A stretch of 64,000 nucleotides of DNA from positions 10,333,712 to 10,397,711 of the forward strand of contig JAJEKV010000011.1 of the NCBI GenBank assembly GCA_021234155.1, written 5' to 3'. Below are positions 19,561 through 64,000 of the stretch, in pieces; within the stretch, counting starts at the first letter, position 1, and each line of letters begins with the position of its first letter. The stretch comes from Isoetes taiwanensis (taxonomy: Eukaryota > Streptophyta > Lycopodiopsida > Isoetales > Isoetaceae). Below the pieces are notes generated by a model that saw nothing but the letters and a program-made list of their open reading frames with translations, made no database searches and was not told the origin of the DNA. A program made the translations under genes and the position numbers.

Positions 19561-19599
19561 TTGCATGGAGCTATAAAGATTTACGAGGCATAAAAAAAG

Positions 19600-20418: not shown

Positions 20419-20481
20419 GCTTAGAATCCCCAAGCAAATGCGGCCTTTCAATACACAGGCCACTGTTCTTGTTCCACCTCA

Positions 20482-20940
20482 ATGGGACAACTATTTCACG
20501 TCCATGTAGATGTTTCAGCTTTTGCTATTGATGTTGTTCTCTCCCAAGAATACGACTCTCAACTTCGACAAACCAATTCGATATCACGGCCGGAAACTCA
20601 ACCCTGCATAGAAGAATTATTCTGCCACAGAATGGGAAGTGCTCGGCCTCATTTTTTGTCTGCAACGGTTTTGCCACTATCTACTGAGTAGCAAAATCAA
20701 GTTCTTTGTAGATCATCAAGCTCTTCTTTATTCATTCATAAGACAGGAAAGTCTCATGTGGTGCCTGATTATCTTTCGTGCATCCATACTGATGATTCGT
20801 CCTCAGGAGTCTCAGACACTTTTCCAGATGCTCAAGTCTTTTTGCTCACGGCCATGCCTCACTAGTTCCATGACTACCATCAATATCTTCTCTCGGGTGC
20901 CTGACCCTCAGAGGATCCCGCGCTTTCTCCCCACAAGTTA
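20482..20940 (+). pseudogene. RNase H of the Athila/Tat-like element, internally deleted
   Basis: The start FHVHVDVSAFAIDVVLSQ corresponds to the D-containing first strand of gypsy RNase H. FFVDHQALLYSF follows at about 20,700-20,735. Almost immediately after it the sequence reads SHVVPDYLSC, which in the family lies some tens of residues further on. I therefore infer an internal deletion near 20,745. Frames switch at least twice. Confidence 0.7.
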
Positions 20941-20985
20941 TGCTCCTGCCATCAAGAATTCCTTCAATAAGTCCGTGACTATATT

Positions 20986-21576
20986 ATGGTTGCAGGACAT
21001 CTCTACAAACGTGGCAAGGATATAACTTTGCGCAGATGTGTACATTCTCATGAGGTCCCGGAGATTGTTCTCCAAGCACATGAAGGATTTGATGGAGGGC
21101 ATTTTAGTGGCGATAACACGACATGGAAAATCCTTTTGGCTGGCTATTTTTGGCCCACGCTGTTCAAAGACGCTCACGCTCATGCGCACCAATGTGATAT
21201 CTGCCAGCGCGTGAGAAGGCCCACGGCTCGTGACGCTCTACCTTTAACTCCAGTTGCCACACCTCTACCCTCCAGCAAATGGGAGATGGATTTTGTTGGG
21301 CCCATTGATCCATCTGCTTGTAACTCCCGTGCTCGATATATTCTTGTTCTCACAATTTATGCCACTAAGTGGGCTAAAACTTGTGCGTTACCTGTTACCT
21401 GATAACACCGCAACCAGCATGGCACGAGTGCTCTACACACAAGTCATTACATGCTTAGACTGCCCCACGGAACTAGTGAGTGACAGGAGTGTTCATTTTG
21501 TCAATCACACGATTAAGGAACTCATGGACTATTTGCACATCCATCATTGGAAGAGCACTCCATATTATCTACGAGG
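20986..21576 (+). pseudogene. Integrase of the Athila/Tat-like element, truncated
   Basis: The N-terminal zinc-binding part is visible (HEGFDGGHFSGD ... QCDICQRV, an HHCC-type finger). GYFWPTLFKDAH lies between, and KWEMDFVGPID begins the catalytic core with the first Asp. The second core block, ELVSDRSVHFVN, is in another frame (21,430-21,570). Coding similarity stops at 21,576 where a fold-back element begins and does not resume after it, so the C-terminal core, including the Glu, is lost. Confidence 0.8.
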
Positions 21577-32130: not shown

Positions 32131-32604
32131 TCAACAAAAAAATTAAGATAATACAATTCCCTGCAGCATGAAATACTAGACCTTAGATTTTTTAGAGCTT
32201 AGACTGAGCCTTTTAGTAGACAATATGAATCGATGCAATCATAGATTTGTGTCTCTGTTGTTCCAAATGCTGAAGCCATAGTGTTTAAACCCCTGGCTTA
32301 AGAAGCATTTAAAAGACATCTATATATTATCTAGCTTCACTATTAATTCAAGAGCAAGTACCTTACAAGAAAATAGCTTAGCTTAACAACCACATGCCAG
32401 CGACTGCAAAGACATGCACATTGATTGCCCAATTATTTATTGTTCTGAGCAGATCTATACATTAAATAGAGTGGCAAACAAATATACCAACAATTACTAT
32501 AAATGCTATTGCAGATAAGCAAAGCACACATCCAGTATAATAGCAAATGCATGCACCCTTATTTATTGTGAAGAAAATAGCAAAAATAACTTAAGGCACT
32601 GAAA

Positions 32605-33232
32605 GTGAAGTCCTTGTGTTCGCTTAGATGTTTTCATGTTCATTTGAGAGGAAGGCAATTGCCCATAGCTACATTTGTTCCTTGTAAATCCAATGTATCG
32701 CCACCGTGCATGCGCAAGACTGCCGTGATCTTCCAATACCGATTGCACTCTTTCAATTACTGGGTTATTAAAAAACATGTAATATTGCATCATCACAGCT
32801 CTATCTTGCCAATTTTCTTGAGCTAAAACCTGTCAATGTTCATGTTCAAAAATTTCGCAGCATAAGAGGAAGCATAGCAAGTTCTTCCTGCAAATAGATA
32901 GGTTATCAAGCAAATGTGCTAGAATTATTATGTTAAGCCTATTGCAAATTTACACCCATATTTATTGTGAACAGAAATATAACAATGAAAATAACTTAAG
33001 CAGACCTGCGATACTTTGTGTCTGCTTTAATATCATCAGCATTGCACATTTGTTTGATAGAAGGATCACTGCACATAGCTCCATCATTCTCTTGTAGATC
33101 CACTGCAATACTAGCTGTATGCTCAAGACTGCTACAATTCTCCTTATCAGTGTGCCCTTCAGCTTGGATTACTAGCAACATGCAATATAGTGATCTGTGC
33201 ATAACTTTCTGGCTTTCTAAGCCAAGAGGCAA
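32605..33232 (-). pseudogene. Two diverged copies of an unknown exon in array R unit 1
   Basis: The stretch 33,232-33,018 (minus) is open and reads MPLGLESQKVMHRSLYCMLL ... DGAMCSDPSIKQMCNADD. The stretch 32,796-32,605 is a diverged paralogue by alignment of the DNA: TTGTGTCTGC/TTGTGTTCGC, CATAGCT, CTTGTA and CTCAAGACTGC/CGCAAGACTGC match in order. The flanking CCCTTATTTATTGTGAAGA and CCATATTTATTGTGAACAG also match. This shows an older duplication of about 400 bp inside the unit. The first block recurs at 36,447-36,208 and 40,032-39,840. The family is unknown; it may be a captured host exon. Confidence 0.45.
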
Positions 33233-35399
33233 AACCGGAATACCCTAATTAGGGTTCAAGAAAGGGCTCAAGGAAAGCATCCGGGTCTGATCTTATCTTT
33301 TAATCTGCCGAAACCCTAAATCATGCCAAATCAATGCCAATTGTATGGTGGCAACAGAGCGTTCCAAGTCCGTGCAATAGCCAAGCTCATGGGAAAAATT
33401 AGGGCTACGGTTTTCATAGCCGGATGAATTTCGTTTTTGCTACTGCATTTTTTTTCCAAAATGTATTTCGTTTTTGCAACCAGCCAAGTTAAAAATATCA
33501 CCTTCTCATAAAAATATTAGAAAACCATATGACACTAGAACCTATACAGATACAAATATAATTTTGATCATAGATCACTTTATACATTAGGTAACGTATC
33601 ATGCACATACATATCTTCCATACCGTAAAGCTCCAAATGCGGAGCATATCTGGCAAGAGCTCCAGTTTTTGAGCCTTATGACTACAATGCCTTTGCATCA
33701 TTTGAGCCGTAGATATTAAGCCTTGCATATCATGACCACATATGCCTGTGCAAATCATTTGAATAATAAAAAAACCCTTCCTCCTTCCGTAGATAAAGGG
33801 GGCCCTATTCTTTATCAGACCAAACATGGAATATGTAATGGTCTGTTTATAGCAACAAGGGGAGTAGGGCCTTGTTGCTACAAGGGCCCTACCCCACCTA
33901 TGTTCTTTATGAAAAACTGTCTACTCACACTTATTGGCAAGCTCCCTATAATGTACCATTATTCTAACCATCAATGCTTGCTTCAGCAATGTACGCATTT
34001 GAATAGAATAAAGATAAAATTTGAGAGAGAATTACCTTGCAGGCAAGCCTGTCTGTATGGGCACAGGTTGTTGCTACCAGTCCAAATGTTGGCTGAAAAT
34101 CATCAAAGTTTTCAGAACATTATGAAGCAAGATGCATACAATGTTAGCAGAAAATCATCAATTTTTTCGGAGCATTATATTCCAAAAAGCCCAATGGCAT
34201 TTTCCAAAAAGCCCAATGGCATTTTCAAACATGCCCAATGGCATTTTCCAACTTATACCATGGATCTCCAACCTATGGATTACTTGTAGCATCATTTCCA
34301 ACCTATCATTTCTAGCCTATGCCCCTTCCTATAAATGTTCAAGAAGTATTAGTAACAAAATATACACACCTGTACTTTAACCAATTCTTAAGGTCTCTAG
34401 TATAACTAGAGAACTGAGTAAGAGAAAAAACACCTTTTAAAATCTGTTTAAATAGACTTTTACCTTTCATGGACTTTTGCAAAGACCACTTCAGGCCAAT
34501 TTGCAGCCTTAAGCCAAAACAGGTGTAAATTTGACTTAAGCCCTAAGAATGGTTAACATTTATTAAATCACAAGAATTTACCAGAATCTATAGCCAATAA
34601 CATTTTCGTCCAAATAACAATTTCGTTTTGTCAATCATATTAAAACTTTGGTCCATACATCATGTTTACCTTCAGGAAAGTTCAGAATTGACTTTCGAAC
34701 ACCTTAAGATTACATAAATTTTGGGATCAATCCCATAGAACTCTCAGCAGACTTGATATCTTCATATCTTCAATGCCGCAAATGTATCTTCAATGTCATC
34801 ATGTCTTATAGCTTTCCAACTTGAATAATTGGGAAAACAAACCAAGGAGCAAGAAACCTGGTTACCTGTAGTAGAACCAAAGGACAGTTAGCCTTAATCA
34901 GGGTAAGAGCCTAAGCTACTAGCAGGTAAGCTATAGGTTTCTTGAGCTTAACGCCCTTCACCTCATTTGCAATCCAAACCACAATAGAGCGAGCATACAT
35001 GCAATTGAAATTATGCGCAAAAAATACCAAGGAGCTCTGCCCTAGTTAAATAACCAGCCAGCATCCTCTACTTTACACATGCATGCTAAACAAACCTCTA
35101 GCTATGCTAACTCTGCCAGAATAGTAACGTAAAGAGCATATTGTGCGAATATCGCTATTGCAAAACCCTATGCAGTAGCAGCAGTATTATTTTCGAGAAT
35201 TTATCATTGTGACCACTCATAAACCAGCATAAGCAACGTTACTTTGGACCTCTGGAGTAAGCATAATTAGCAGATAGGCATGTTCCTCTGCTTAATCATA
35301 CATTGCTATTACATAACCCTATAGGTTAACAATAATATTTCAGGGAATAATACGTCAGTTTAACTTGAAACATTCTTGCACTTAGTCAGATTCTATTTA

Positions 35400-38300
35400 A
35401 TGATGTGATCAAATAGCATGCATGGCCCTGTTTCATGCCCACTTGTCATATGCCTTTATTCAAGTAACTGCCTATGCACTGTGATCAAATAGCATGCATG
35501 GCCCTGTTTCTGCCTGTGCACTATGATCAAATAGCATGCATGGCCCTGTTTCATGCCCAGTTGTCATATGCCTTTATTCAAGCAACTGCCTGTGCAACTT
35601 AACTCATGCAGAAATGTAGTGCATTCTTAATCCGTGATCCAGCGTAAGACAAGCAAACATATAGCCTGTGAACAAAATTAAGATAATACAATTCCCTGCA
35701 GCATGAAATACTAGACCTTAGATATTTTTAGAGCTTAGACTGAGCCTTTTAGTAGACAATATGAATCGATGCAATCATAGATTTGTGTCTCTGCTGTTCC
35801 AAATGCTGAAGCCATAGTGTTTAAACCCCGGGCTTAAGAAGCATTTAAAAGACATCTATATATTATCTAGCTTCACTATTAATTCAAGAGCAAGTACCTT
35901 ACAAGAAAATAGCTTAGCTTAACAACCACATGCCAGCGACTGCAAAGACATGCACATTGATTGCCCAATTATTTATTGTTCTGAGCAGATCTATACATTA
36001 AATAGAGTGGCAAACAAATATACCAACAATTACTATAAATGCTATTGCAGATAAGCAAAGCACACATCCAGTATAATAGCAAATGCATGCACCCTTATTT
36101 ATTGTGAAGATAGGTTATCAAGCAAATGTGCCAGAATTATTATGTTAAGCCTATTGCAAATTTACACCCATATTTATTGTGAACAGAAATATAACAATGA
36201 AAATAACTTAAGCAGACCTGCGATAAGCCTTTGTGTCTGCTTTAATATCATCAGCATTGCACATTTGTTTGATAGAAGGATCACTGCACATAGCTCCATC
36301 ATTCTCTTGTAGATCCACTGCAATACTAGCTGTATGCTCAAGACTGCTACAATTCTCCTTATCAGTGTGCCCTTCAGCTTGGATTACTAGCAACATGCAA
36401 TATAGTGATCTGTGCATAACTTTCTGGCTTTCTAAGCCAAGAGGCAAAACCGAAATACCCTAATTAGGGTTCAAGAAAGGGCTCAAGCAAAACATACGGC
36501 TCTGATCTTATCTTTTAATCTGCCGAAACCCTAAATCATGCCAAATCAATGCCAGTTGTATGGTGGCAACAGAGCGTTCCAAGTCCGTGCAACAGCCAAG
36601 CTCATGGGAAAAATTAGGGCTACGGTTTTCATAGCCGGATGAATTTCGTTTTTGCTACTGCATTTTTTTCCAAAATGTATTTCGTTTTTGCAACCAGCCA
36701 AGTTAAAAATATCACCTTCTCATAAAAACATTAGAAAACCATATGACACTAGAACCTATACAGATACAAATATAATTTTGATCATAGATCACTTTATACA
36801 TTAGGTAACGTATCATGCACATACATATCTTCCATACCGTAAAGCTCCAAATGCGGAGCATATCTGGCAAGAGCTCCAGTTTTTGAGCCTTATGACTACA
36901 ATGCCTTTGCATCATTTGAGCCGTAGATATTAAGCCTTGCATATCATGAGCACATATGCCTGTGCAAATCATTTGAATAATAAAAAAACCCTTCCTCCTT
37001 CCGTAGATAAAGGGGGCCCTATTCTTTATCAGACCAAACATGGAATATGTAATGGTCTGTTTATAGCAACAAGGGGAGTAGGGCCTTGTTGCTACAAGGG
37101 CCCTACCCCACCTATGTTCTTTATGAAAAACTGTCTACTCACACTTATTGGCAAGCTCCCTATAATGTACCATTATTCTAACCATCAATGCTTGCTTCAG
37201 CAATGTACGCATTTGAATAGAATAAAGATAAAATTTGAGAGAGAATTACCTTGCAGGCAAGCCTGTCTGTATGGGCACAGGTTGTTGCTACCAGTCCAAA
37301 TGTTGGCTGAAAATCATCAAAGTTTTCAGAACATTATGAAGCAAGATGCATACAATGTTAGCAGAAAATCATCATTTTTTTCGGAGCATTACATTCCAAA
37401 AAGCCCAATGGCATTTTCCAAAAAGCCCAATGGCATTTTCAAACATGCCCAATGGTATTTTCCAACTTATACCATGGATCTCCAACCTATGGATTACTTG
37501 TATCAGATTCATCATTTCCAACCTATCATTTCTAGCCTATGCCCCTTCCTATAAATGTTCAAGAAGTATTAGTGACAAAATATACACACCTGTACTTTAA
37601 CCAATTCTTAAGGTCTCTAGTATAACTAGAGAACTGAGTAAGAGAAAAAAAAAACCTTTTAAAATCTGTTTAAACAGACTTTTACCTTTCATGGACTTTT
37701 GCAAAGACCACTTCAGGCCAATTTGCAGCCTTAAGCCAAAACAGGTGTAAATTTGACTTAAGCCCTAAGAATGGTTAACATTTATTAAATCACAAGAATT
37801 TACCAGAATCTATAGCCAATAACATTTTCGTCCAATAACAATTTCGTTTTGTCAATCATATTAAAACTTTGGTCCATACATCCTGTTTACCTTCAGGAAA
37901 GTTCAGAATTGACTTTCGAACACCTTAAGATTACATAAATTTTGGGATCAATCCCATAGAACTCTCAGCAGACTTGATATCTTCATATCTTCAATGCCGC
38001 AAATGTATCTTCAATGTCATCATGTCTCATAGCTTTCCAACTTGAATAAATGGGAAAACAAACCAAGGAGCAAGAAACATGGTTACCTGCAGTAGAACCA
38101 AAGGACAGTTAGCCTTAATCAGGGTAAGAGCCTAAGCTACTAGCAGGTAAGCTATAGGTTTCTTGAGCTTAACGCCCTTCACCTCATTTGCAATCCAAAC
38201 CAAAATAGAGCGAGCATACACGCAATTGAAATTATGCGCAAAAAATACCAAGGAGCTCTGCCCTAGTTAAATAACCAGCCAGCATCCTCTACTTTACACA

Positions 38301-38655
38301 TGCATGCTAAACAAACCTCTAGCTATGCTAACTCTGCCAGAATAGTAACTTAAAGAGCATATTGTGCGAATATCGCTATTGCAAAACCCTATGCAAAGAA
38401 AAGCAGTATTATTTTCGAGAATTTATCCTTGTGACCACTCATAAACCAGCATAAGCAACGTTACTTTGGACCTCTGGAGTAAGCATAATTAGCAGATAGG
38501 CATGTTCCTCTGCTTAATCAACCACATAGTGCATCTAATCAAGGCAACATATATTACATTGCTATTACATAACCCTATAGGTTAACAATAATATTTCAGG
38601 GAATAATACGTCAGTTTAACTTGAAACATCCTTGCACTTAGTCGATTCTATTTAA
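35400..38655. repeat. Tandem array R, unit 2
   Basis: A copy of unit 1 at very high identity, offset by 3,215 bp at the exon block. It lacks the LINE fragment and about 325 bp corresponding to 32,580-32,905, with the junction at GAAGATAGGTTATC near 36,107-36,120. It has an extra 29-33 bp (near 38,521-38,553) absent from unit 1. The leader sub-repeat GATCAAATAGCATGCATGG occurs three times at about 35,408-35,545. Confidence 0.9.
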
Positions 38656-40664
38656 TGCTTTGATCAAACAAAGATGCATGGCCCCTGCTTTCATGCCCAC
38701 TTGTCATATGCCTTTATTCAAGTAATCGCCTATGCACCGTGATCAAATAGCATGCATGGCCCCTTTTACGCACAGCACTTTGGATCAAATAGCATGCATG
38801 GCCCTGTTTCATGCCCACTTGTCATATGCCTTTATTCAAGTAATCGCACAGGCAACTTAACTCATGCAGAAATTTAGTGCATTCTTAATCCGTGATCCAA
38901 ATAAGACAAGCAAACATATAGCCCGTGAACAAAATTAAGATAACACAATTCCTGCAAAGATGAAATACTAGACCTTAGATATTTTTAGAGCTTAGGACCG
39001 AGCCTTTTAGTAGACAATATGAATCGATGCAATCATAGATTTGTGTCTCTCATTGCTTGCTCCAAATGTTTGAAGCCATAGTGTTTAAAACCCCGGCTTA
39101 AGAAGCATTTTCTATATATTATCTAGCTTCACTATTAATTCAAGAGCAAGTACCTTACAAGAAAATAGCTTAGCTTAACAACCACATGCCACCCGCATCG
39201 CAAAGACATGCACATTGATTGCCCAATTATTTATTGTTCGGGCAGATCTATACATTAAATAGAGTGGCAAACAAATATACCAATGATTACTATAAATGCT
39301 ATTGCGGATAAGCAAAGCACACATCCAAATATAATAGCAAATGCATGCACCCTTATTTATTGTGAAGAAAATAGCAAAAAAAATAACTTAAGGACTGAAA
39401 GTGAAGTCCTTGTGTTCCGCCTTAGATGTCTTCATGTTCATTTGAGAGGAAGGCAATTGCCCATAGCTACATTTGTTCCTTGTAAATCCAATGTCTCTTG
39501 CCAAATTTGATGCAAAGACCGCCGCATCTTCCAATACTAGTGCACTCTTCACCCATTTGGGTTATTAAAAACATGTAATATTGCATCATCACAAATCTAT
39601 CTTGCCAATTTTCTTGAGCTAAAACCTTTGTCAATGTTCATGTTCAAAAATTTCGCGAAGATAAGAGGAAGCATAGCAAGTTCTTCCCCGCAAATAGATA
39701 GGTTATCAAGCAAATGTGCGAAATTATTATGTTAAGCCTATTGCAAATTTACACCCATATTTATTGTGAACAGAAATATAACAATGAAAATAACTTAAGC
39801 GGACTGCGATAAGCCTTTGTGTCCGCCTTTAATATCATCGATTGCACATTTGTTTGATAGAAGGATCACTGCACATAGCTCCATCATTCTCTTGTAGATC
39901 CACTGCAATACTAGCTGTATGCTCAAGACTGCTACAATTCTCCTTATCAGTGTGCCCTTCAGTTTGGATTACTAGCAACATGCAATATAGTGATCTGTGC
40001 ATAACTTTCTGGCTTTCTAAGCCAAGAGGCAAAACCGGAATACCCTAATTAGGGTTCAAGAAAGGGCTCAAGCAAAGCATCCAGCTCTGATCTTATCTTT
40101 TAATCTGCCGAAACCCTAAATCATGCCAAATCAATGCCAGTTGTATGGTGGCAACAGAGCGTTCCAAGTCCGTGCAACAGCCAAGCTCATGGGAAAAATT
40201 AGGGCTACGGTTTTCATAGCCGGATGAATTTCGTTTTTGCTACTGCATTTTTTTCCAAGCCAAGTTAAAAATATCATCTTCTCATAAAAACATTAGAAAA
40301 CCATATGACACTAGAACCTATACAGATACATATATAATTTTGATCATAGATCACTTTATACATTAGGTAACGTATCATGCACATACATATCTTCCATACC
40401 GTAAAGCTCCAAATGCGGAGCATATCTGGCAAGAGCTCCAGTTTTTGAGCCTTATGACTACAATGCCTTTGCATCATTTGAGCCGTAGATATTAAGCCTT
40501 GCATATCATGACTACATATGCCTGTGCAAGCTCCAAATGCGGAGCATATCTGGCAAGAGCTCCAGTTTTTGAGCCTTATGACTACAATGCCTTTGCATCA
40601 TTTGAGCCGTAGATATTAAGCCTTGCATACATATGCCTGTGCAAATCATTTGAATAATATAAAT
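38656..40664. repeat. Tandem array R, unit 3, truncated and locally duplicated
   Basis: Retains the 325-bp block lost from unit 2 and ends near 40,664, where units 1 and 2 continue. A piece of about 125 bp (GCTCCAAATGCGGAGCATAT ... TTAAGCCTTGCAT) is tandemly duplicated at 40,405-40,505 and 40,529-40,629. Up to about 39,845 its differences from units 1 and 2 fall mainly at CAG/CTG triplets. After that point it is nearly identical to them. Confidence 0.85.
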
Positions 40665-43439: not shown

Positions 43440-46400
43440 TAAGCTTCATTTTATTGGCCGTTGACATTCCCAGTATTTATATTGGTCCTTGTGTCGCCAC
43501 TTAGATTACCTCTCCAAGATCTTTATCGTATGTGTACATGCTATGTACATAAGAAACATATATCCTCATCCCACAATGCTAGAGCTCTGCTCTAACTTAG
43601 CTAAAATGTAACCTTGGTAGTTCTTTCAAACCAAACCCATTGCCTATATACCTTCACGATGTGGCTGAGCCACAGACTTCCCAAATGGACAGGGGCTAAC
43701 TCTATGTTGGACTTGTATATGTTGCCTATATTTTGATAAGGTCTCTAACCATTTCAACCATTCCTTTAGTGCCTTATGGTACTTTAATCCCGTACATAAA
43801 CTATGATTCCCCCATAGGATTATGCCATAATTCCGAAGGCTACTACCCCACATAAGGAGCTTTTCTAAAGGCTTCTTTCGCTAAGGATCCTTTGTGTTCC
43901 ATACCACCCATGCTTAGTTACAATTAACCTATTTTTCTTAAGTTATCATGTGGACTTCAGCTTTTTGATCAGCTTCAAATGTTTGCCGCCGCCTTTTTGG
44001 CTCCTTCATAATGAAGTGGAGGCACTAAAACCTCCTGGTCTTCTAATAGGAAAACCTAATGTTTCAATCTTCGTTAGTAACCGCTATATGATTATCCAAT
44101 TCCTTACCCTCTTAAGAATTTCAAAGTCATAATCTCTAACGGGTCTATGCCGCAAGGCAACGGATCCTCCAGCTTCTACTGCCGTACCTACAATTGTTCC
44201 CCGCGAGTAGGGTAACTCTGAGGATATATGGATTTGTTGGTCTATATAATCTCACCCCTTCGATCTATACACCTCGTCTTGATTTTCATTGGGACTCGGA
44301 ATTGCTATGTATTGCCCTCTTCTCAGTTATCCCTAAAGGTATAATCGCCAAAGTCATCGTACTCCTTCTTTTCGTCCATCAGGGGGATGCGATATTTATA
44401 CATCTTTTTATTCCCAAACCCGAATAAATGCTCTCAGCTTATAACGCTGAAGTAATTCATTGGTATCTAGAACCTTTCAAGAGTTAAGCTCTTCCTGGGA
44501 TGTTTTTGAATGTATATTACCGTATATGCTACACTTACTCTAGCTATTTTCACTGATTCAAACTCTTTCCATATCCCTTAGTACGACGTATCTAAGATAG
44601 CCAACTCCAACCATTGGAATAACTTCAATGCTTATCTCTGGTGGATCATACCTTAACCCAATATCTTCGTATATAAGCATATCATTATGCTTATTCTTTA
44701 AGCCTTCCTAAGTAATATTTCATTATGCCTTTATACATCTAGATATCACAATCGACATCTTCGATAGCCGTATGACCCTATCAAGGGTTTCGAGATCGTT
44801 AACATCCCTCGCGATCACGCTTTTCAACATTTACAAACATACGCCTCTTGTCAAGACTTGGCATTATTGGGATTGTACTAAAGCGGAAGCCTTTCTTTAT
44901 CGCGAACAATCACCTCAATTTATTCATCATTAGCCCTACTTTGAACTATCAGTATGTTATAATTCAGGCTTGGACTAGGTACACGTGTGAGCCAATTCTA
45001 CGTCTAGATTCATAGTGATTATTTGACATAGCCACCTAGCTATGTTCATACTTGCCACCAATTTATTTCCTCGACTCGGTTCTCTGCTGCCATGGGCATG
45101 TTGTGGTTTCGACACCACACCTTCTACACTCTCTAGCCATAGTTGTCTTGGTCCTCAAGCTTGAGTCACAAATTCCACAGGGGCAAATGCCACCCTAAGT
45201 CCTAGTGGACATGTTTAACGACTCGTATAGGAACTCTTTTATATGGAATGTGAACTAAAAGTTCTATTATGCACCCTTTCTTTTTCTTGTTATGTTTTAC
45301 CATTAAGTGGTCCTAGTATGCATATACCAATGATGAGCTACTCCTTGGGATACACACGCGATACCGAGTCCAAAGCACATTCTCCTTGGTGAGATGTTCA
45401 TTGGACACCTCTCTTATTCATACTCCCGACTTTGGTCTATTCAAAGTATCCTTCCAAACTCTCTATATTTGAAACGTTGTTTACAACAACTTTCAAGCAC
45501 CTCTTGTCTTCCACTTGTCGTGTGAATATATTACTTTCGATCGTTGCGCCTGCTCCTACCAATTGTCGTTTTCTCTTCACCTGCAAACTACTATTGTCCA
45601 GTCTGATATTCGGCATCTCCATGCTCCCAGCAGACATAAGATGTGTCCATTTCCTTAATTTATATCCTTTGTAATGGTCATGCATTTGACCAACGTCATT
45701 AAGCGTATCCAAGTGACTATGTCATCATCTTAATCATGCGCCCGCTTGCATTGTTATTGCACACCTTAGGAACACCAATCTCCTTAGGAAACGTAGCATA
45801 TGCGTAATTTTATAATCCGTAGTTTATGGATCCGCATCCTCATACAACATTATTCTCTACCTTCCGCGAATCATACCTCCATTCAAGTGGAAATAGCTAT
45901 AAAATGTTGGCTCGACATTCTATGCCTGCACCATCATGATCGAACCCTACACTTCTAAAGTCGTCTCCCTCTCAGGAGCTGGGTACTCATAATCCAGTTT
46001 CCACCTTAGTATGGTACCTCTCTAACGTGGTCTATGGTAGATAATCATAAACCACTTCTTCCTCGGATATATGCTGTATGGCAATATATATGTCGCATAA
46101 TAAATCAATCTTCGTAATTATTAGGTCCAGCGTTTCAATCAGATACCAAACATCGTCATACAAATTTTCTCGAGTATCCATCCAAAATAGGGATACCTTA
46201 ACACTCCTTATTCCCAACATTCAGCACTTTTACTTTAAGTAAGAGCCCAGAACCTGCTCAGTCATCACCCTATAACAGGCTCAGGACAGACCAGGCATGG
46301 TTTCGATGCTTCCGCCGTGGACACCATAGTTACAACTGGACTTCCGTGATACAGGATGATTGCATAGCCATAGCACTGCCGGATAGCGACCGGGGCGGTA

Positions 46401-48077
46401 CCAATTACGTCGAATGTATATGTCAGCTGTACCTGTGCTCTGTAAATATAAGAATGTATGTATGTGTCATAGATTTACGAAAATAGCAATAAAATAAATA
46501 AGTAATCAAATGTAAGAATATCGGGACGTCTGGTCAGTGTATAAACATAACCAATAAATTAATATGTGTCCTCATGTGACTTTAATCTATGCTAAAGATA
46601 AAGAGTGTGAGTGTGGAAAAATTAAAGATAATCGAAAGGAGCAAGCTATTTAAACACATAATCAAATATAATAGAAGGAGATAACTATGTATGTCTTACA
46701 CAGACTTCTGAGGGAATAACGAGACTTAGATTAGGTTATAACAAGCTTATGAATAATAAATCATCAAGAACGTCTGTCTGTGTTTAATATTAAAGTATAT
46801 AGGTAAAACTGTCCGATACAGTACAATATATAATTCTATTAAAGGGTAAGTATAAATGTGAGGGGCATGTAAACATTGACGATAGCAATATACGAGTTGT
46901 TAAAACTGTAACAAAATACGAAAACAAAATTTAGATGCAAAATTACATTAAGGCTGGCTGTAATAAAATCACTTGCAAAGTCAAGGGAGAATATAATAGT
47001 CATATACACAGAAGTTAATATGATTAGAATGACTTTCTACTAAACAGTGCGCGATTAATAAGTCTGTACTATATTAAAAGAATTGCACGTATGTATAAAA
47101 AGAATGATCTCTAAATTAGATAAACTCCGAACTCGTCACCACGAATGAAACAGTGAGACTTTCACAAACCTTGCCTGTTGACTTTTGACAGTCCTAAGCC
47201 ATGATCATGTCTGATCTATACCTCTACCCTTTATATTCCAGAGTTATAAATTGCACATTACAAGCAGTAATGGAATTTGCAAGACACTCCCTATACTTCG
47301 GAGGACAGGCAATAAAATTTTCTGCTTTTCATGTGAAACAAAAATCTAAAATTAAACTTTTCATGTGACAAGTAAAAATCAAGAATGAAAATTTTAAACA
47401 AAAATAAACAAACTATTGTATAATCCAACAAAAGATGATGTTTCAATAAAACACAATAAACTTTTAGTGATCCATTAGATAATGTTATCAAAATAGCCAA
47501 AGGTTCAACAGATTATGTTTCTATCAAAAGTAAGAGGTATGGCATATTCAATAAAACCTGGACATATTCAGATATAAGAGACAGGGATATCATTTTAAGG
47601 TTATATGTCATGTTTAATTCTTCGTGATTCTTTTAATTTTTACAAGTTTTCAATTACATCACTTTATCTTTAAATTTAAAGTATAATTGTTATAACAACA
47701 TAAAATTGCTTTCTAAACTAACTTTCACGTGAATCTATTTAGAATTAGACATTTCAAGAATATAAAATTTTAATTTTTAGTAATTTCTTTATAAATTTAA
47801 ATTTGGCAATCAGGATAATTTGTAAATGAAATATGATAGTTTGATAAGTGATTGACTTAAAATTATATGAGAATTTCACAATTTATAAACTCTTAGCACT
47901 TAAAAAATACTTTAAAAAAGTGTTAGATTTAAAAGATAAAGTTCATGTTTAGTGACAAATATTGAATAGTTTATTATTGATGAAATAAATCAGATATAAT
48001 ACAGAAATATCATTTTAAGGTTATATGTCATGTTTAATTCATTGTGATTCTTTTAATTTTTACAAATTTCAATTACA
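43440..48077. repeat. Tandem array A, unit 1 (4,638 bp)
   Basis: Begins TAAGCTTCATTTTATTGGCC and runs to the next TAAGCTTC at 48,078. It can be divided into A (43,440-46,770), B (46,771-47,266) and C (47,267-48,077). Segment A recurs at 55,117-58,452 and segment C at 48,420-49,185 plus 55,041-55,116. No known gene is present. Short frames conserved between copies (for example minus 43,644-43,853 and 45,437-45,712) are conserved because the DNA is nearly identical, not by evident selection. Segments B and C are AT-rich, whereas A is more balanced. Confidence 0.9.
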
Positions 48078-55116: not shown

Positions 55117-58100
55117 TAAGCTTCATTTTATTGGCCGTTGACATTCCCAGTATTTATATTGGTCCTTGTGTCGCCACTTAGATTACCTCTCCAAGATCTT
55201 TATCGTATGTGTACATGCTATGTACATAAGAAACATATATCCTCATCCCACAATGCTAGAGCTCTGCTCTAACTTAGCTAAAATGTAACCTTGGTAGTTC
55301 TTTCAAACCAAACCCATTGCCTATATACCTTCACGATGTGGCTGAGCCACAGACTTCCCAAATGGACAGGGGCTAACTCTATGTTGGACTTGTATATGTT
55401 GCCTATATTTTGATAAGGTCTCTAACCATTTCAACCATTCCTTTAGTGCCTTATGGTACTTTAATCCCGTACATAAACTATGATTCCCCCATAGGATTAT
55501 GCCATAATTCCGAAGGCTACTACCCCACATAAGGAGCTTTTCTAAAGGCTTCTTTCGCTAAGGATCCTTTGTGTTCCATACCACCCATGCTTAGTTACAA
55601 TTAACCTATTTTTCTTAAGTTATCATGTGGACTTCAGCTTTTGATCAGCTTCAAATGCTGCCGTCTTTGGCTCCTTCATAATGAAGTGGAGGCACTAAAA
55701 CCTCCTGGTCTTCTAATAGGAAAACCCAATGTTTCAATCTTCGTTAGTAACCGCCATATGATTATCCAATTCCTTACCCTCTTAAGAATTTCAAAGTCAT
55801 AATCTCTAACGGGTCTATGCCGCAAGGCAACGGATCCTCCAGCTTCTACTGCCGTACCTACAATTGTTCCCCGCGAGTAGGGTAACTCTGAGGATATATG
55901 GACTGTTGGTCTATATAATCTCACCCCTTCTGATCTATACACCTCGTCTTGATTTTCATTGGGACTCGGAATTGCTATGTATTGCCCTCTTCTCAGTTAT
56001 CCCTAAAGGTATAATCGCCAAAGTCATCGTACTCCTTCTTTTCGTCCATCAGGGGGATGCGATATTTATACATCTTTTTATTCCCAAACCCGAATAAATG
56101 CTCTCAGCTTATAACGCTGAAGTAATTCATTGGTATCTAGAACCTTTCAGTAGTTAAGCTCTTCCTCGGGATGTTTTTGAATGTATATTACCGTATATGC
56201 TACACTTACTCTAGCTATTTTCACTGATTCAAACTCTTTCCATATCCCTTAGTACGACGTATCTAAGATAGCCAACTCCAACCATTGGAATAACTTCAAT
56301 GCTTATCTCTGGTGGATCATACCTTAACCCAATATCTTCGTATATAAGCATATCATTATGCTTATTCTTTAAGCCTTCCTAAGTAATATTTCAGTCGCCT
56401 TATACATCTAGATATCACAATCGACATCTTCGATAGCCGTATGACCCTATCAAGGGTTTCGAGATCGTTAACATCCCTCGCGATCACGCTTTCGAACATT
56501 TACAGCATACGCTCTGTCGCACTTGGCATTATTGGGATTGTACTAAGCAGGAAGCCTTTGCTGATGCGAACAATCACCTCAATTTATTCATCATCAGCCC
56601 TACTTTGAACTATCAGTATGTTATAATTCAGGCTTGGACTAGGTACACGTGTGAGCCAATTCTATGTCTAGATTCATAGTGATTATTTGACATAGCCACC
56701 TAGCTATGTTCATACTTGCCACCAATTTATTTCCTCGACTCGGTTCTCTGCTGCCATGGGCATGTTGTGGTTTCGACACCACACCTTCTACACTCTCTAG
56801 CCATAGTTGTCTTGGTCCTCAAGCTTGAGTCACAAATTCCACAGGGGCAAATGCCACCCTAAGTCCTAGTGGACATGTTTAACGACTCGTGTAGGAACTC
56901 TTATCTTCATTACTTCCGTATTTATATGGAATGTGAACTAAAAGTTCTATTATGCACCCTTTCTTTTTCTTGTTATGTTTTACCATTAAGTGGTCCTAGT
57001 ATGCATATACCAATGACGAGCTACTCCTTGGGATACACACGCGATACCGAGTCCAAAGCACATTCTCCTTGGTGAGATGTTCATTGGACACCTCCCTTAT
57101 TCATACTCCCGACTTTGGTCTATTCAAATTATCCTTCCAAACTCTCTATATTTGAAACGTTGTTTACAACAACTTTCAAGCACCTCTTGTCTTCCACTTG
57201 TCGTGTGGGTATATTACTTTCGATCGTTGTGCCTGCTCCTACCAATTGTCGTTTTCTCTTCACCTGCAAACTACGTTCCATACTATTGTCCAGTCTGTTA
57301 TTCGACATCTCCATGCTCCCAGCAGACATAAGATGTGTCCATTTCCTTAATTTATATCCTTCGTAATGGTCATGCATTTGACCAACGTCATTAAGCGTAT
57401 CCAAGTGACTATGTCATCATCTTAATCATGCGCCCGCTTGCATTGTTATTGCACACCTTAGGAACACCAATCTCCTTAGGAAACGTAGCGTATGCGTAAT
57501 TTTATAATCCGTAGTTTATGGATCCGCATCCTCATACAACATTATTCTCTACCTTCCGCGAATCATACCTCCATTCAAGTGGCAATACCTATAAAATGTT
57601 GGCTCGACATTCTATGCCTGCACCATCATGATCGAACCCTACACTTCTAAAGTCGTCTCCCTCTCAGGAGCTGGGTACTCATAATCCAGTTTCCACCTTA
57701 GTATGGTACCTCTCTAACGTGGTCTATGGTAGATAATCATAAACCACTTCTTCCTCGGATATATGCTGTATGGCAATATATATGCCGCATAATAAATCAA
57801 TCTTCGTAATTATTAGGTCCAGCGTTTCAATCAGATACCAAACATCGTCATACAAATTTTCTCGAGTATCCATCCAAAATAGGGATACCTTAACACTCCT
57901 TATTCCCAACATTCAGCACTTGTACTTTAAGTAAGAGCCTAGAACCTGCTCAGTCATCACCCTATAACAGGCTCAGGACAGACCAGGCATGGTTTCGATG
58001 CTTCCGCCGTGGACACCATAGTTACAACTGGACTTCCGTGATACAGGACGATTGCATAGCCATAGCACTGCCGGATAGCGACCGGGGCGGTACCAATTAC

Positions 58101-58452
58101 GTCGAATGTATATGTCAGCTGTACCTGTGCCCTGTAAATATAAGAATGTCTGTATGTGTCATAGATTTACGAAAATAGCAATAAAATAAATAAGTAATCA
58201 AATGTAAGAATATCGGGACGTCTGGTCAGTGTATAAACATAACCAATAAATTAATATGTGTCCTCATGTGACTCTAATCTATGCTAAAGATAAAGAGTGT
58301 GAGTCAAAGATAATCGAAAGGAGCAAGCTATTTAAACACATAATCAAATATAATAGAAGGAGATAACTATGTATGTCTTACACAGACTTCTGAGGGAATA
58401 ACGAGACTTAGATTAGGTTATAGCAAGCTTATGAATAATAAATCATCAAGAA
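55117..58452. repeat. Tandem array A, unit 3, truncated by LTR element b
   Basis: Segment A again, near-identical to 43,440-46,770 apart from scattered small differences, several at CAG/CTG triplets (for example near 55,640, 56,395 and 56,500-56,560). It ends exactly where the LTR of family b starts (TGTGACG at 58,453), in the middle of sequence that continues in unit 1 as CGTCTGTCTG. Confidence 0.9.
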
Positions 58453-60014
58453 TGTGACGTTCCATGTAGTTATACGGTCTACGTCATGTATTTGCAATGG
58501 GAATTTAATTGCAACCTAGGGAGTTACCTTAAAAAGGATTAAATTAGCTATGCTAATTTAACACATTAATAATAATAACCTATAACCTAGGAAATTAGGC
58601 TAATTACCATTTGGGGAGGCGCCACCTGCCCCAATCGATTGGGCAGCATGGGGATTGCCAAGTTTGGATGCCAGCTTGACCCCTATCCCCGGGATTGACT
58701 CACGAAGATCGACCAAGGAAGGCCGAGAGCCGGCGCCATCATACACTTGCGAAGATCACCATAACGATCGTCCACGGAAGTAACAATGAATTCTCAATTC
58801 CCGGAAGATGGAGGCCCCATGGAAACGAGTCCGGCCCGAATTCGTGTAGGTGGCTATGTGAATTCTAGATAACACTTGGTTGTGTCCGCTCTCTCTCTTC
58901 TCTTTGTGAATCAATCATAGAAACTAACCCTTGATTGTACAAACAAGTTCTCTTTATATATTCAATTCTTGGTCTTACTCTGAAAGGATGGATTGTTAGT
59001 CCCTTGTTTAATCGACTCACGAAACGGGGGATTACGGGGTAGAGGCCTCTCGAACCGTGTATTGTAGTATGCTCCTAGATAGCGCCGTAGAGAGTCCCAT
59101 TAAATGCGGCACATTGCACAAGAACCCACCGGGTCCTAGATGCTATGGTCCGGCTTAGCACCGGACAAGGAACACAAGGTGTGACATGAGGGTGGGATCT
59201 TGCATGAGCATACAAGGCTCACGAGACTCCTACATGGGCTAGGCCTGATAGCCTGGTCACGCGTTGAGGGCGGGTATGGGTCCGACACTCCCTCAGGTGT
59301 AGAGGTGTGATCCGTATGGAGCACCATGCACTTTGAGTAGATTTAGGGTGAGTAAGTCGGCACGGATGCGGGGGTCGCTGATGCGCACGTATTCTCTAGC
59401 TCACCCATGGAACCACTTTGTGATTACGGAAGGGGCGCCTCCCAGGCCTGCCTCATCGGACCAAAGGCCATGAACACAGGTAGGCTCAGAGGGTGATGCC
59501 CCGAGTTTGCATCTCCTAAGGCTATAGCAAAGCCATAGCATGAATTGACCCATCCGCAAAGTGTGCACGGGAGGGGCGGATGGAGTGGACAACCCTAGCC
59601 AATGCTCTATGCCAGATAGCGCCATGCCAAGACCCGGTCTGGCGATCTCTTGAGGCCCGACCATCGGTCGATCCTCACGGAGTCCGAGCCGGGTAGAACA
59701 CCGGGTTCTCGGGTGTTTTCGTGGGGATTAGATGCATATTCTCGCCCGTTGGTATGTTAGATGGATGCGCCACCCTTGTGGTGGTTATTTATGTATATTC
59801 ATGCCGTGTGCTAACCCTTGTATTCATGCTTCTGCGACGTAGGAGTCCCATCAAGGCGTGGGCGAATGACCCTTCGTGTCCTTCTTTTCGGCCTCATTTC
59901 ATAGATGGCCTGAAATAGGCGGAGGGCCCCGCTCATGGTGAGATGATTGCCATGGGAGGGGAAAGTCCCGTATGTATACGTCCGAGGGTCGTGATATATT
60001 CCGGGGCGTCCACA
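58453..60014 (+). mobile_element. LTR of retroelement family b (1,562 bp)
   Basis: Starts TGTGACGTTCCATG and ends GGGCGTCCACA, followed directly by a primer-binding site. It aligns with the reverse complement of 9,745-11,325, sharing the CATGGTGAG, GATTGCCATGGGAGGG and TGTGACGTTCCAT blocks. It interrupts tandem array A at 58,452, so it is younger than the array. The short frames inside it (for example minus 59,401-59,664) are not genes. A matching 3' LTR is not found before the window ends. Confidence 0.88.
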
Positions 60015-60037
60015 TGGTATCGAGCCGTGATTTCGGT
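60015..60037 (+). other. Primer-binding site of element b
   Basis: TGGTATCGAGCCGTGATTTC lies directly after the LTR end, against TGGTATCAGAGCCATGATTC in family a. It is a variant of the tRNA-iMet site. The missing A in ATCGAGCC falls at a CAG triplet and may be a sequence error. Confidence 0.8.
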
Positions 60038-60750
60038 TGCTTTCGAAATCATAGCACCGGCAAACACTAACTTCGTATACGGTAGTTAGGAGGAGGCTAA
60101 GTCAATGTGTCGTTAGTTCTCTTTGTTGTTTGGCTTGGTGTTAGGTTAAGTTAAGAAATTGTAGCTTTGAAGTGGCCAAGATTGGAGGCCTAAGGTGTCG
60201 ATGGGTAGCTCAAATGACGAAGGAGATGGTTTCCTTGGATCGGGCGTACTTGAATTACCCTAGAACAAATCAACTCAGGCGAAAAATAGTCAAGGGCAGG
60301 CCCAAAAACGAATTCGGGCGCCGCTTGCTTTTTGTCGCTTTGCGATCAAGTTCAGCGCCGAAAATCTTTGTCGGCGCCCGGCCGTCGGACAGGAAGTCAA
60401 CGCTGGCCCGCCAGGTCAACTTCGGGCCCGCTTGCATTCGGCGACACCGTCGAAGCGTGGCCCGTATAATGCCATCGGCGCCCGACCGTATGTGGCGCGT
60501 ATTTCCGCCGTATAATTTTTTTAATAATAAAATTTTGAAGTTAATAAGAAAAAATTTTGAAATTTTAAAAGTTAATTGGCCGTTTAGCAAACCATTTCCT
60601 GTCATTTGCTTTTGCTTCCGTGCCTCCAACCGCCTGAGCCGCCCTCCGCCATCGCCACCAGACCGGACCTTGATCCTGCGCCCTTGTGCCTTGTGCATCT
60701 TAAGCCCCCCCTTGCCATCCCCCAAGCGCCACGGTACCGCGCTACCCGCT
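60027..60750 (+). other. Leader of element b
   Basis: Between the PBS and the first good ATG (60,751). The frame is open from 60,172 but starts with composition unlike protein and includes a very AT-rich stretch (60,510-60,590, TTTTTTAATAATAAAATTTTG type), then a CCGCC/CCCC-rich stretch just before the ATG. I read it as untranslated leader with a possible promoter-like AT/GC transition, not as coding. Confidence 0.5.
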
Positions 60751-61119
60751 ATGGCCATTACCAAGAGCGCTCCGGATCCGTCCACCATGAGCATCGTGGA
60801 GATCTATGCCATGATTACTAAGCACATGGCTACTGACCCAGCCCTCATCGACATCTTGTTGGATGAGCTGGTCAATAGGTTTGAGAACAACGATAGGATT
60901 CCATATCCTGTCTATCACTTCTCAGAGCCATTCCTCATCCGGCTGAACCTACGCCAGCTCCCATATACCCTTGTTGAGCAACCTGATATGGTAATGATGC
61001 TCATCAAATTTTATCCTCCCGAACAGGAAGGCCATACGGAGGGAGGAAGATGTCGGGGCGGGAGGCCGACCGTGATTAGGGTTTTGCCGGGGAGGGGCGA
61101 CCAGGAGATTGAGCGGTGA
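60751..61119 (+). CDS. Upstream ORF of element b, unknown protein
   Basis: ATG at 60,751 (CGCTATGGCC, good context) opens 122 codons. Residues 1-92 have normal composition and look helical: SIVEIYAMITKHMATDP, ALIDILLDELVNRFEN, YPVYHFSEPFLIRLNL, QPDMVMMLIKFYPPEQ. The last 30 residues are Gly/Arg-rich and may be out of frame. The position directly after LTR, PBS and leader is that of gag. The coding sequence of the histone-like ORF (61,305-61,976) is two bases out of phase with it. A frameshift or an intron in 61,040-61,330 could join them. No database family is recognised. Confidence 0.45.
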   Translation: MAITKSAPDPSTMSIVEIYAMITKHMATDPALIDILLDELVNRFENNDRIPYPVYHFSEPFLIRLNLRQLPYTLVEQPDMVMMLIKFYPPEQEGHTEGGRCRGGRPTVIRVLPGRGDQEIER

Positions 61120-61304
61120 CCGCGGCTTCGGGGTAGGGAGTAATCTGTATTCGGGGGCGGCTTTGCGTCATTGATGGCGAAGCCATTGAGGTTCCCCATA
61201 CCACCGCATGAGGGTTCCAACAGCTTTTGTCCGGGGAGAAATCCCCGACATTAGCATAGACTATCTGACAACTATTCGAGATAGATATGGGTCTCAAACC
61301 CTAA

Positions 61305-61976
61305 CGGTACCACGCTGAACTTAATCGCCGTGCCGCAGCCCAGCTTTTTGCTCAGATCCAAGAAGACCTAAGGAGAGCTCGGGAAGAGCGCGAGAAGTTG
61401 GAGCAAGATGAGCGGGACCGACAAGATCAGCGGGACCAACAGGGAGGAGGTGCATCTGGGAGTGGCTCGAACCCAAAACCGACGCATCCGACCGTTAAGC
61501 TCCGGAGGAAGGGAGTTGCCCATAAGGCCGGCAGTCAATACAAGGATAAGTTAAGGACTGTCGGGGCTTTTGGGAAGAAGACCAGCTCCGACCGGAGGCA
61601 GCAGAGAGTGGATAACTCCCGGCCGGTTGCTGGGGCTAAGACGGTGCCAACATCGTCGGGGCCTGGGCCACAGCGGAAGCCTCATCGGTTCCGACCCGGT
61701 ACCGTGGCATTGCGGGAGATCCGCAAATTTCAGAAGTCCACGGACCTTCTGATCAGGAAGCTACCTTTTCAGAGGCTGGTACGGGAGATCGCACAGCAAT
61801 TTAAGACCGATCTCCGTTTCCAGACCTTTGCAATTTTGGCGCTCCAAGAGGTCAGCCAAGCCTACTTGGTAGCACTTTTTGGTGATGCCAACCTTTGCGC
61901 TATCCACGCAAAGAGGGTCACCATAATGCCTAAGGATTTAGCCCTCGCCCGTAGGATACGGGGGGAGCAACCTTAG
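61305..61976 (+). CDS. Histone H3-fold protein (H3/CENH3-like) inside LTR element b
   Basis: Open from the stop at 61,302-61,304 to TAG at 61,974-61,976 (223 codons). The first part is a charged, Ala/Gln/Arg/Glu helix ([20 protein letters not shown]), then a Gly/Ser linker and a basic tail of about 80 residues unlike the canonical H3 tail. The last 98 residues are a complete H3 core: [16 protein letters not shown] (alpha-N), [16 protein letters not shown] (alpha-1), FKTDLRFQ (loop 1), [17 protein letters not shown] (alpha-2), [15 protein letters not shown] and [10 protein letters not shown] (alpha-3, C-terminus). Substitutions such as TFAIL for SSAVA, VSQA for AAEA and GDAN for EDTN recall centromeric H3 variants, but loop 1 is not lengthened. 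No ATG occurs in frame before the core. No intron is needed within the core. It could be a captured retrocopy, or a domain of a Gag-like fusion. Confidence 0.85.
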
Positions 61977-62175: not shown

Positions 62176-62930
62176 ATGGCTGCCGCCGCCGACCTTGCTG
62201 CCTGGTACCTTGATGGAGAGAAATGGGATCCACAGGTTCCCTTCGACCTGCTGCAGCCTTTGCTATGCCAATGCGTAGATCTCCTTGCCAATATCTACGG
62301 CATCCTGACTCACGCCGGATTCCTTGACTTTACATGGAGGAAATGCTTCCTCATGGTATTCCTCTGGGGATCCTCCCCACTTGTATTTGGAGGCGGAGAT
62401 AGTTCGGCGGATGCTAGGCGGGGACACACATGCTTATGGCGTCTTGAAGGGGAAACTCCGATGGGGTAAACACCTACCAGTGGTCCAGCATGAGGGGCAG
62501 CAATATCCGAAGCTACTTTAAGCTCTAGCCATCCTCATGGACCAATACGTTGAGGATGAAATCTTCGGGCCAGAGAAGGGCGGGCTACGAGAATCCTCCG
62601 AGGAGGGGGATGACGAAGCATATAGGAATGGGCTTACTTTGCCCGCTGGAAAGAGCTAGCCAGAGGAGCTACCACCGCCGTGACCAATCTATAGGCTTGT
62701 CGGGGTTAGACGGCCTTCCGATTATTTACCACCGGGAGCGGGAATACCTTCTCTTGGATGATATTATCCGGGCGTATCACGCGTGGTGGCGGTTTCGGCC
62801 TAGCGCGCAAAGACCATGTACTTTACGAGCTTGCGGAGTATTGTATGGATGATTTCATCGACTTCACTTCTACCGAGCTTCCTCCTCGGTGCACCGGTAT
62901 TCGTTCGATCGAGGAGACCCTAGAGCCGTG
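62176..62930 (+). pseudogene. Second ORF of element b, unknown protein, frameshifted
   Basis: Begins MAAAADLAAWYLDGEKWDPQ and continues PFDLLQPLLCQCVDLLANIY to about 62,375. The sense sequence then appears to shift into the frame reading LYLEAEIVRRMLGGDTHAYG (to 62,521), and later YVEDEIFGPEKGGLRES and DHVLYELAEYCMDDFIDF in other frames. Composition in each piece is protein-like, so I infer one ORF of roughly 250 codons broken by several small shifts. I recognise no domain: it is neither RT, integrase nor a plain zinc knuckle. It could be an element-specific protein or a second captured gene. Confidence 0.4.
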
Positions 62931-63610
62931 AGGAGACTCTATTACGTCTTCGCGACTTCGTGATGCGGGGAACCGGCCAAGAACCGCACGGAGATGCCTT
63001 CCGCGGCTATGGGACCTCACGCCCCAAACATTAATATGGTTGAAGTTCCCTCAGGCTTCGGATGATGAGGGTGAAGATTTATACCATAACCCCTGCGCAC
63101 AAGAAGGAGGAGCAACAGAGCTCAAGGGAAGAAGAAGTCCCCATGGACTTGGATAAAGAAGTGGCGACATCCGAGACTTCGCAAGGGAAAGTCTTTGGGT
63201 AACCACCTTTACCCGCTTTCTTCTTGTCGGCCTTCAAATACCGGACAAGTCCTCTTCATAGCCCGAGATCTAGGGCCGAGGGTCAAGCTTCATGGTGGGC
63301 CCTCCGTGCACTCTCTACACCGGCCGCCACAAGAAGCTTCCCTATCGATGCGTTCACGTTATGTACTCGTCTGACGGGATCTTGCCCCACGGCGGCCTTG
63401 GGTCGGGACATTGCGCCTTGGATGGGCATGAAGCTCCTCACGGCAGCCCCCATTGGCGTTGCCTATCCACCCGGAGGTTGCATCACGCTGCGGCCGCCAC
63501 GGTGAGACCACAGGGTTACTCTCTTCATGACACCCCAGCCTCCACCACCTCCTAGGGCTAAGGATCGGGCGGGGCCTAGTTCCTAGTATAATTTTGCTAT
63601 AAAAAAAATG
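62931..63610. other. GC-rich remainder of element b internal region
   Basis: GC-rich with very few CTG/CAG triplets in 62,880-63,500. Fragments of protein-like frame are present (for example near 63,060-63,200, Glu/Lys-rich). No pol domain is seen, so element b may be non-autonomous, or its pol may lie beyond the window. Confidence 0.4.

Positions 63611-63616
<6 letters not shown>

Positions 63617-63678
<62 letters not shown>
63617..63678. repeat. (TA)n microsatellite
   Basis: About 31 TA dinucleotides, followed by TATAAATATAAATATATATA. The apparent reading frame through it is an artefact. Confidence 0.95.
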
Positions 63679-63682
<4 letters not shown>

Positions 63683-64000
63683 TAAATATATATAACAGGT
63701 TGGAGACGGTTGCGACACAAGAGCTAGTTACAGCACTTGTGAAGCTCATACCGCCACATGGGAGATGTCAAATACTCTCCACTACTGCGGCTCAAAATAC
63801 TAAGAGTTATGTAGTCTCCTTTATTGCATTGGTGGCCTAATTTGCTATGGCACCACTCTGTACTCTTTTCTTGTATGGATGCAATAGAACAATATCTTGA
63901 AGTGCAAAAAAACATGTACACACACTTGGTCAAAAAACAATATTTTGGCTGGCTGAAACACATTAGCCGGTTACAACATTTGTGGAAGCTCAGACCGATT
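63679..64000. other. Unassigned right end of window
   Basis: AT-rich and without recognisable coding sequence. It shares no sequence with the start of LTR b, so the 3' LTR of element b is not here. Confidence 0.4.

Follow-up and report, generated by a model that had tools for sequence, protein, structure and literature searches.

A histone H3 maintained within an additional gene of a Ty3/gypsy-type retrotransposon in Isoetes taiwanensis

Retroelements are silenced through the tails of histone H3, which chromoviruses are believed to read when choosing where to insert. The retrotransposon family described here encodes an H3 of its own. One copy lies in a stretch of 64,000 nt from contig JAJEKV010000011.1 of Isoetes taiwanensis (hereafter, the window; C919 coordinates refer to the same contig extended beyond it). 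The histone forms the C-terminus of an extra 5' gene, ORF1, and the H3 open reading frame (ORF) is a feature of the family, present at hundreds of places in the genome. It is a gene of the element beyond serious doubt, and ORF1 is almost certainly selected as a protein. The best overall reading, which on balance is favored, is an old capture of a host H3 that has been kept as a chromatin-assembled histone with a replacement tail of about 300 residues. By bringing in an H3 of its own with a different tail, such an element would intervene directly in this layer of silencing and targeting. It would parallel, among reverse-transcribing elements, the single histones of DNA viruses, and it makes testable whether a transposon can write its own chromatin.

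A complete copy of 13.1 kb lies at C974:15271966-15285078 (L033:998 to L034:4110), with the layout long terminal repeat (LTR)-ORF1-ORF2-gag-protease-reverse transcriptase (RT)-RNase H-integrase-chromodomain-LTR. The two LTRs are about 1.6 kb long and 93% identical (Kimura two-parameter distance, K2P, 0.049), and the target-site duplication (TSD) is CCGGC. A primer-binding site (PBS) is present, and a purine-rich stretch precedes the 3' LTR. In this one copy (L033/L034), Pfam matches identify capsid and zinc-knuckle domains in gag, followed by protease, RT, RNase H, and integrase in that order, with a chromodomain at the integrase C-terminus (PF00385, E 2e-08, L034:1372-1992). ORF2 is broken in the copy, and pol is spread across several open frames. 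A TG...CA LTR pair with a 5-bp TSD is found in two copies, this one and the window copy (AAGAA). By domain order and chromodomain, the element is classed as a Ty3/gypsy chromovirus. It shares with the plant Ty3/gypsy chromoviruses described in the available text of PMC3350952 the LTRs, the PBS, the series from gag to integrase, and the C-terminal chromodomain; unlike them, it has ORF1 with H3, and ORF2, upstream of gag. ORF2, which lies between ORF1 and gag, is 96-97% identical in 5 copies (e.g., L013:2285-3574), and in 5 copies outside the window it is an open frame of about 430 aa that reaches the end of the fetched DNA. The ORF2 piece of L033 has no Pfam match, and a comparison of ORF2 with the N-terminal domain of ORF1 found no relation (hhalign probability 0.1).

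The architecture of ORF1 and the clade comparisons are drawn from an alignment of 14 intact ORF1s belonging to three clades (A, B, and C). These ORF1s are 394-451 aa long, and the order of their parts is the same in all three clades: an N-terminal domain (N-domain) of about 200 aa, a coiled coil of variable length, a basic linker, and an H3 that runs to the final residue. The H3 part matches PF00125 in 14/14, and no other part of these ORF1s rises above the Pfam cut-off among the families listed. For the H3 of the window copy, the match to the Pfam Histone family has E 1.7e-40, and the best match among solved structures is an H3.3 (E 6.8e-52, query residues 77-191), both well outside what chance would give. 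The first-pass annotation had reported an LTR with TG...CA ends and a PBS followed by an uninterrupted H3 core, and had proposed that the retroelement family carries a histone, its intact core suggesting recent capture or selection. The LTR, PBS, and core are confirmed; the core lies at the same place in the other copies checked and evolves under strong purifying selection, with no neutral decay between copies. It is not a free-standing ORF, however, but the C-terminus of the longer ORF1, which is frameshifted in the window copy and open elsewhere. A structure model predicts the coiled coil as a helix at residues 185-233 (pLDDT, the predicted local distance difference test, 71-82 over the block). 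The best of five models of the N-domain is fair (pLDDT 83, predicted template modeling score 0.77), whereas the remaining four reach 61-68; among solved and viral-predicted structures it had no match at E <= 0.001. An H3K9-like ARKS histone mimic in the linker is not claimed, the motif not being conserved: three older clade A members have ARKS (L056, L059) or ARKT (L064), and the same site reads AHKA/AHKS in young clade A, TPQRSG/TPRKSG in B, and SPTRLG/SPTCLG in C.

The genome searched comprises 1,658,258,908 bases in 1,110 contigs. Only the best candidates were scored, so every count is a minimum, and the lists share entries. With the H3 region of the window copy as query, at least 150 places were found, all 150 reaching query residue 21 or earlier (i.e., into the linker). 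The best 150 places found with a plant H3 were 15 host H3 genes (96-98% identity) and 135 places at 71-86%, 15 of which were read (L050-L064) and were all of the element type. The full ORF1 of L059 found at least 99 places at 72-100% identity (55/99 without an internal stop by hand count), and the divergent H3 of L069 at least 150. The H3 is also tied to pol. Among the best 150 RT places, 42 are preceded on their own strand, within 20 kb, by a listed H3, and the spacing from H3 to RT is fixed at 4.3-4.8 kb in 28 of the 150; the controls gave 1 downstream on the same strand and 2 on the opposite strand. The L069 list set against the same RT places gave 24 upstream (controls, 0 and 1), of which at least 16 were absent from the first comparison. 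In that comparison 108 RT places had no listed H3; 12 were drawn at random (seed 1) from the first 60 of these. ORF1 sequence was present at 10/12 and the H3 part at 8/12, several of the ten being decayed; at L073 and L076 the H3 part lies beyond the fetched stretch, and that of L076 was later read as L080. By the 10/12, most copies of the family have the extra ORF.

Selection on ORF1 was estimated from 16 of the 30 loci found with the window H3 query, taken where the alignment kept start and frame; all 16 sampled ORF1s are open. The summed pairwise ratio of nonsynonymous to synonymous divergence (dN/dS) is 0.081 in the N-domain, which lay outside the search query that picked these copies, 0.189 in the coil and linker, and 0.059 in H3. 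The H3 core of these 16 copies has a dS of 0.15, below the 0.36 of their N-domain. Within clades (14 ORF1s), dN/dS is 0.016-0.071 for H3 (young A, 0.071; old A, 0.016; B, 0.040; C, 0.032) and 0.065-0.183 for the N-domain (young A, 0.080; old A, 0.065; B, 0.098; C, 0.183). In 12 cores of clade A, the dN of H3 stays at or below 0.062 at dS values of up to 2.4, and the H3s of L052 and L056 differ by a dS of 0.75 and a dN of 0. That ORF1 is maintained under selection in many copies hints at a role for a home-made chromatin protein in the life cycle of the element.

Between clades A, B, and C, identity is 32-38% in the N-domain, 26-44% in the coil and linker, and 85-92% in H3. The three diverged clades, as natural variants, reveal the parts of H3 that such a parasite has to retain and the parts that it changes. 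Four copies, two from B and two from C, have an RT that matches the clade A query at 96-97% identity. The ORF1 region appears to have been exchanged between pol backbones, because, between ORF1 clades, synonymous sites are saturated in H3 but RT dS is 0.56-1.39 (RT set: L088-L094 with L033; H3 set: L016, L024, L029, L013, L069, L085, L080, and L083). Within clade A (6 pairs), the RT and H3 dS values are similar (e.g., 0.36/0.34, 0.21/0.17, and 0.26/0.34); in two C copies the relation is reversed (RT dS 0.64, H3 dS 0.29).

The alignment of readable element cores with host H3 contains no gaps. Measured against the main host H3, 15 cores drawn from the three clades show 11-17 substitutions in 97 residues; positions 86, 87, 89, 105, 107, 124, and 135 are changed in all 15 cores, and position 102 in 14. 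Three of the seven universal changes (S86T, S87F/H, and V89I) fall in or beside the chaperone site at residues 87-90, which reads FAIL or HAIL in the element and SAVL or HAVL in the host. Position 87 is F in clade A and H in clades B and C. Because the host H3.3-like L049 also has H87, this one site suggests an H3.3-type source. By its sequence, the element H3 is classed as canonical and not as CENH3, with which the first-pass annotation had linked it. It resembles CENH3 in being a divergent H3 with an unusual N-terminus, but its core is canonical and lacks the loop insertion of the sequence that we take to be Arabidopsis CENH3, and no CENH3-type core with an altered loop 1 was seen among the element H3s compared. 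In the tree, the element H3 stands beside canonical H3 and far from the presumed CENH3, and a CENH3 origin is rejected. Canonical H3 (host rows together with rows presumed to represent other canonical H3s) is separated from the element rows with support of 95/81; one label change accounts for the element H3s on the tree, but the branch concerned is weak (29/0).

The capture is old, and much older than the insertion in the window, because synonymous sites of H3 are saturated both between ORF1 clades and against host H3. This saturation and the low dN/dS speak against the recent capture that had been proposed, as well as against a neutral retrocopy, and both are rejected. The window insertion itself (K2P 0.175 between its LTRs) is millions of years old at assumed plant substitution rates, which may not fit Isoetes.

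The sequence evidence fits a mechanism in which a Ty3/gypsy chromovirus lineage would have captured a host H3 gene long ago and kept it as the C-terminal part of ORF1. The H3 part would pair with host H4 and be assembled into nucleosomes, probably independently of replication. Pairing with host H4 would follow because a lone H3 with so constrained a fold most simply still pairs, and entry of the ORF1 H3 into nucleosomes with host H4 is fairly probable. An element-specific domain of about 300 residues would then stand where the usual H3 tail displays K4 and K9. This domain would tether the integration complex to chromatin, or would keep the element DNA or the target site from H3K9-methyl silencing; that ORF1 acts in one of these two ways is plausible, if somewhat short of an even chance. 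More tentative still is the fuller proposal that an element-encoded nucleosomal H3 variant builds an element-specific chromatin, in which a swappable, fast-diverging N-domain would steer integration and escape H3K9-methyl silencing.

ORF1 might instead be a structural or nucleic-acid-packaging protein of the particle, its basic histone fold condensing RNA or cDNA with no role in nucleosomes. Such a protein could account for the basic linker and H3 adjoining a predicted coiled coil and for the position of ORF1 before gag. It is nevertheless unlikely, since the element has a separate gag with capsid and zinc-knuckle matches, and packaging alone would not call for a near-complete H3 fold that stays 85-92% identical between clades when the remainder drops to 26-44%. 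Just as improbable is a decoy that would upset the assembly of chromatin by binding to H4 or to the H3-H4 chaperones of the host, without itself being deposited. The partial clustering of differences at the chaperone site (S86T, S87F/H, V89I) could be read this way, and a lone H3 would require host partners; yet the residues that we take to be DNA contacts and H3-H3 contacts, which a decoy does not need, are mostly kept. The idea that H3 is a passenger, either a chance retrocopy beside an LTR or a hitch-hiking captured fragment, would suit the frameshifted, decaying window copy but can practically be dismissed, because H3 and the N-domain both have a dN/dS far under 1 and three clades share one architecture.

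Several observations weigh against the reading of ORF1 as an old captured H3 that is still assembled into chromatin. ORF1 is known here from DNA sequence alone. Internal stops occur in 44/99 scored ORF1s (hand count), no ORF1 was found at 2 of the 12 random RT places (L077, L078) within the fetched stretch, and some copies alter residues of the fold (e.g., R52C in L082 and R116Q in L069). Sampling favored good matches, hence intact copies; purifying selection stands despite this, because choosing good matches cannot remove nonsynonymous change at such dS. Shuffle tests give no clear sign that the linker is the old H3 tail, and clades A and B fail them: the full linker compared with the H3 tail gave 8-67/1000 in four clade C rows, 326-518 in B, and 49-386 in A, and without its last five residues the result was below 100/1000 in L082 only (17). 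The start of ORF1 is MARTKGTKS in three of the four clade C rows (L080, L081, and L083) and MARTKGIKS in the fourth, whereas H3 begins MARTKQTARKS. This may be chance or a relic of the H3 tail, and it offers a lead, nothing firmer, that ORF1 could be an H3 with an insert inside its tail.

Captured genes are known from other plant LTR retrotransposons. Gypsy elements of Phalaenopsis carry a captured 2-ODD (AlkB-like) domain (PMC7264820, PMC9289625, available text). The H3 element resembles the additional-ORF elements of these sources in that an extra gene is kept in many copies, and differs from those described there in that a core histone is fused to a new domain upstream of gag. No histone is among the extra domains named in the available text of a survey of 121 angiosperm genomes (PMC9289625). 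Single H3s occur in the DNA viruses xenomavirus, DSLPV1, and sylvanvirus, where they are 73-87% identical to a possible host H3; several have I89 in an altered chaperone site (SAIL, TAIL), and the tail is often divergent or longer, the extra length being at most 68 residues where it is given (PMC9145170, available text). The best-studied single viral histone, bracovirus H4, has been recovered in host nucleosomes (PMC9145170, same text); in like manner the ORF1 H3 would carry a tail of the element's own into chromatin. The element H3 is likewise a lone histone close to host H3 with an altered chaperone site, a likeness of analogy and not descent; unlike the viral H3s, it belongs to a retrotransposon, has about 300 residues before the core, and is present in hundreds of copies. 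The available text of this review of viral histones makes no mention of a retrovirus or retrotransposon. Among the open-licence papers listed, judged by titles and abstract openings, no retrotransposon-borne histone was found, and the main text of Isoetes genome publications (PMC8566536 among them), where available, leaves histones unmentioned.

The features of the window copy are collected in the table. Extension of the contig locates the 3' LTR and the second AAGAA far beyond position 61,305, the TSD flanking both outer sides of the LTR pair. The PBS has one base less than that of L033, and the H3 core begins 1.66 kb past the 5' LTR. ORF1 opens with an ATG at 60751 and has its stop at 61974-61976; it is frameshifted, and its first frame ends after 122 codons. 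The whole insertion spans about 27.8 kb and includes about 14.8 kb of other sequence, taken as a nested insertion, that extends from the window to near C919:10412142, where the element resumes before gag. This inner sequence opens at an AT microsatellite (window 63600-63690) and contains a 3.2-kb direct duplication, 95% identical (within L065:1-7024).

Features of the window copy (window positions unless C919 is given)
Feature	Position	Strand	Remark
Left TSD, AAGAA	58448..58452	.	Right twin at L067:1916-1920 (C919)
5' LTR, TG...CA, 1,562 bp	58453..60014	+	Partner 3' LTR outside the window
3' LTR	C919:10418366-10419914		85.6% identity to 5' LTR by BLAST
Primer-binding site, TGGTATCGAGCC	60015..60026	+	Copy L033 has TGGTATCAGAGCC
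ORF1 (N-domain, coiled coil, basic linker, histone H3), frameshifted in this copy	60751..61976	+	
Histone H3 part of ORF1 (KPHRFRPG...RRIRGEQP, stop)	61677..61976	+	
ORF2 remnant, frameshifted	62176..63586	+	
Start of about 14.8 kb of other sequence inside the element	63631..64000	.	
Paralogous empty site, single AAGAA	46766..46770	.	In first copy of 3.3-kb repeat

A 3.3-kb direct repeat occupies window positions 43440-46770 and 55117-58452 (97% identical, 11.7 kb apart). Its second copy breaks off at the LTR and its first continues through a single AAGAA, beyond which the sequence matches that past the 3' LTR at 90%. The LTR pair, the AAGAA duplication, and this paralogous empty site mark the window copy as a genuine insertion. 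Its H3 core has three changes (A95V, A96S, and E97Q) that are absent from the other 15 rows compared, and these private changes, together with the diverged LTR pair, identify it as an old and decaying one. Elsewhere in the window, a truncated second LTR of the same family lies with its leader at 9655-10700 on the minus strand, with no ORF1 alongside. At 19533-21297 lies a relic of a different gypsy pol, whose fragments of RT, RNase H, and integrase share 28-48% identity with the H3 element, and three imperfect direct-repeat copies of a unit of about 3.2-3.6 kb extend over positions ~32189-40629.

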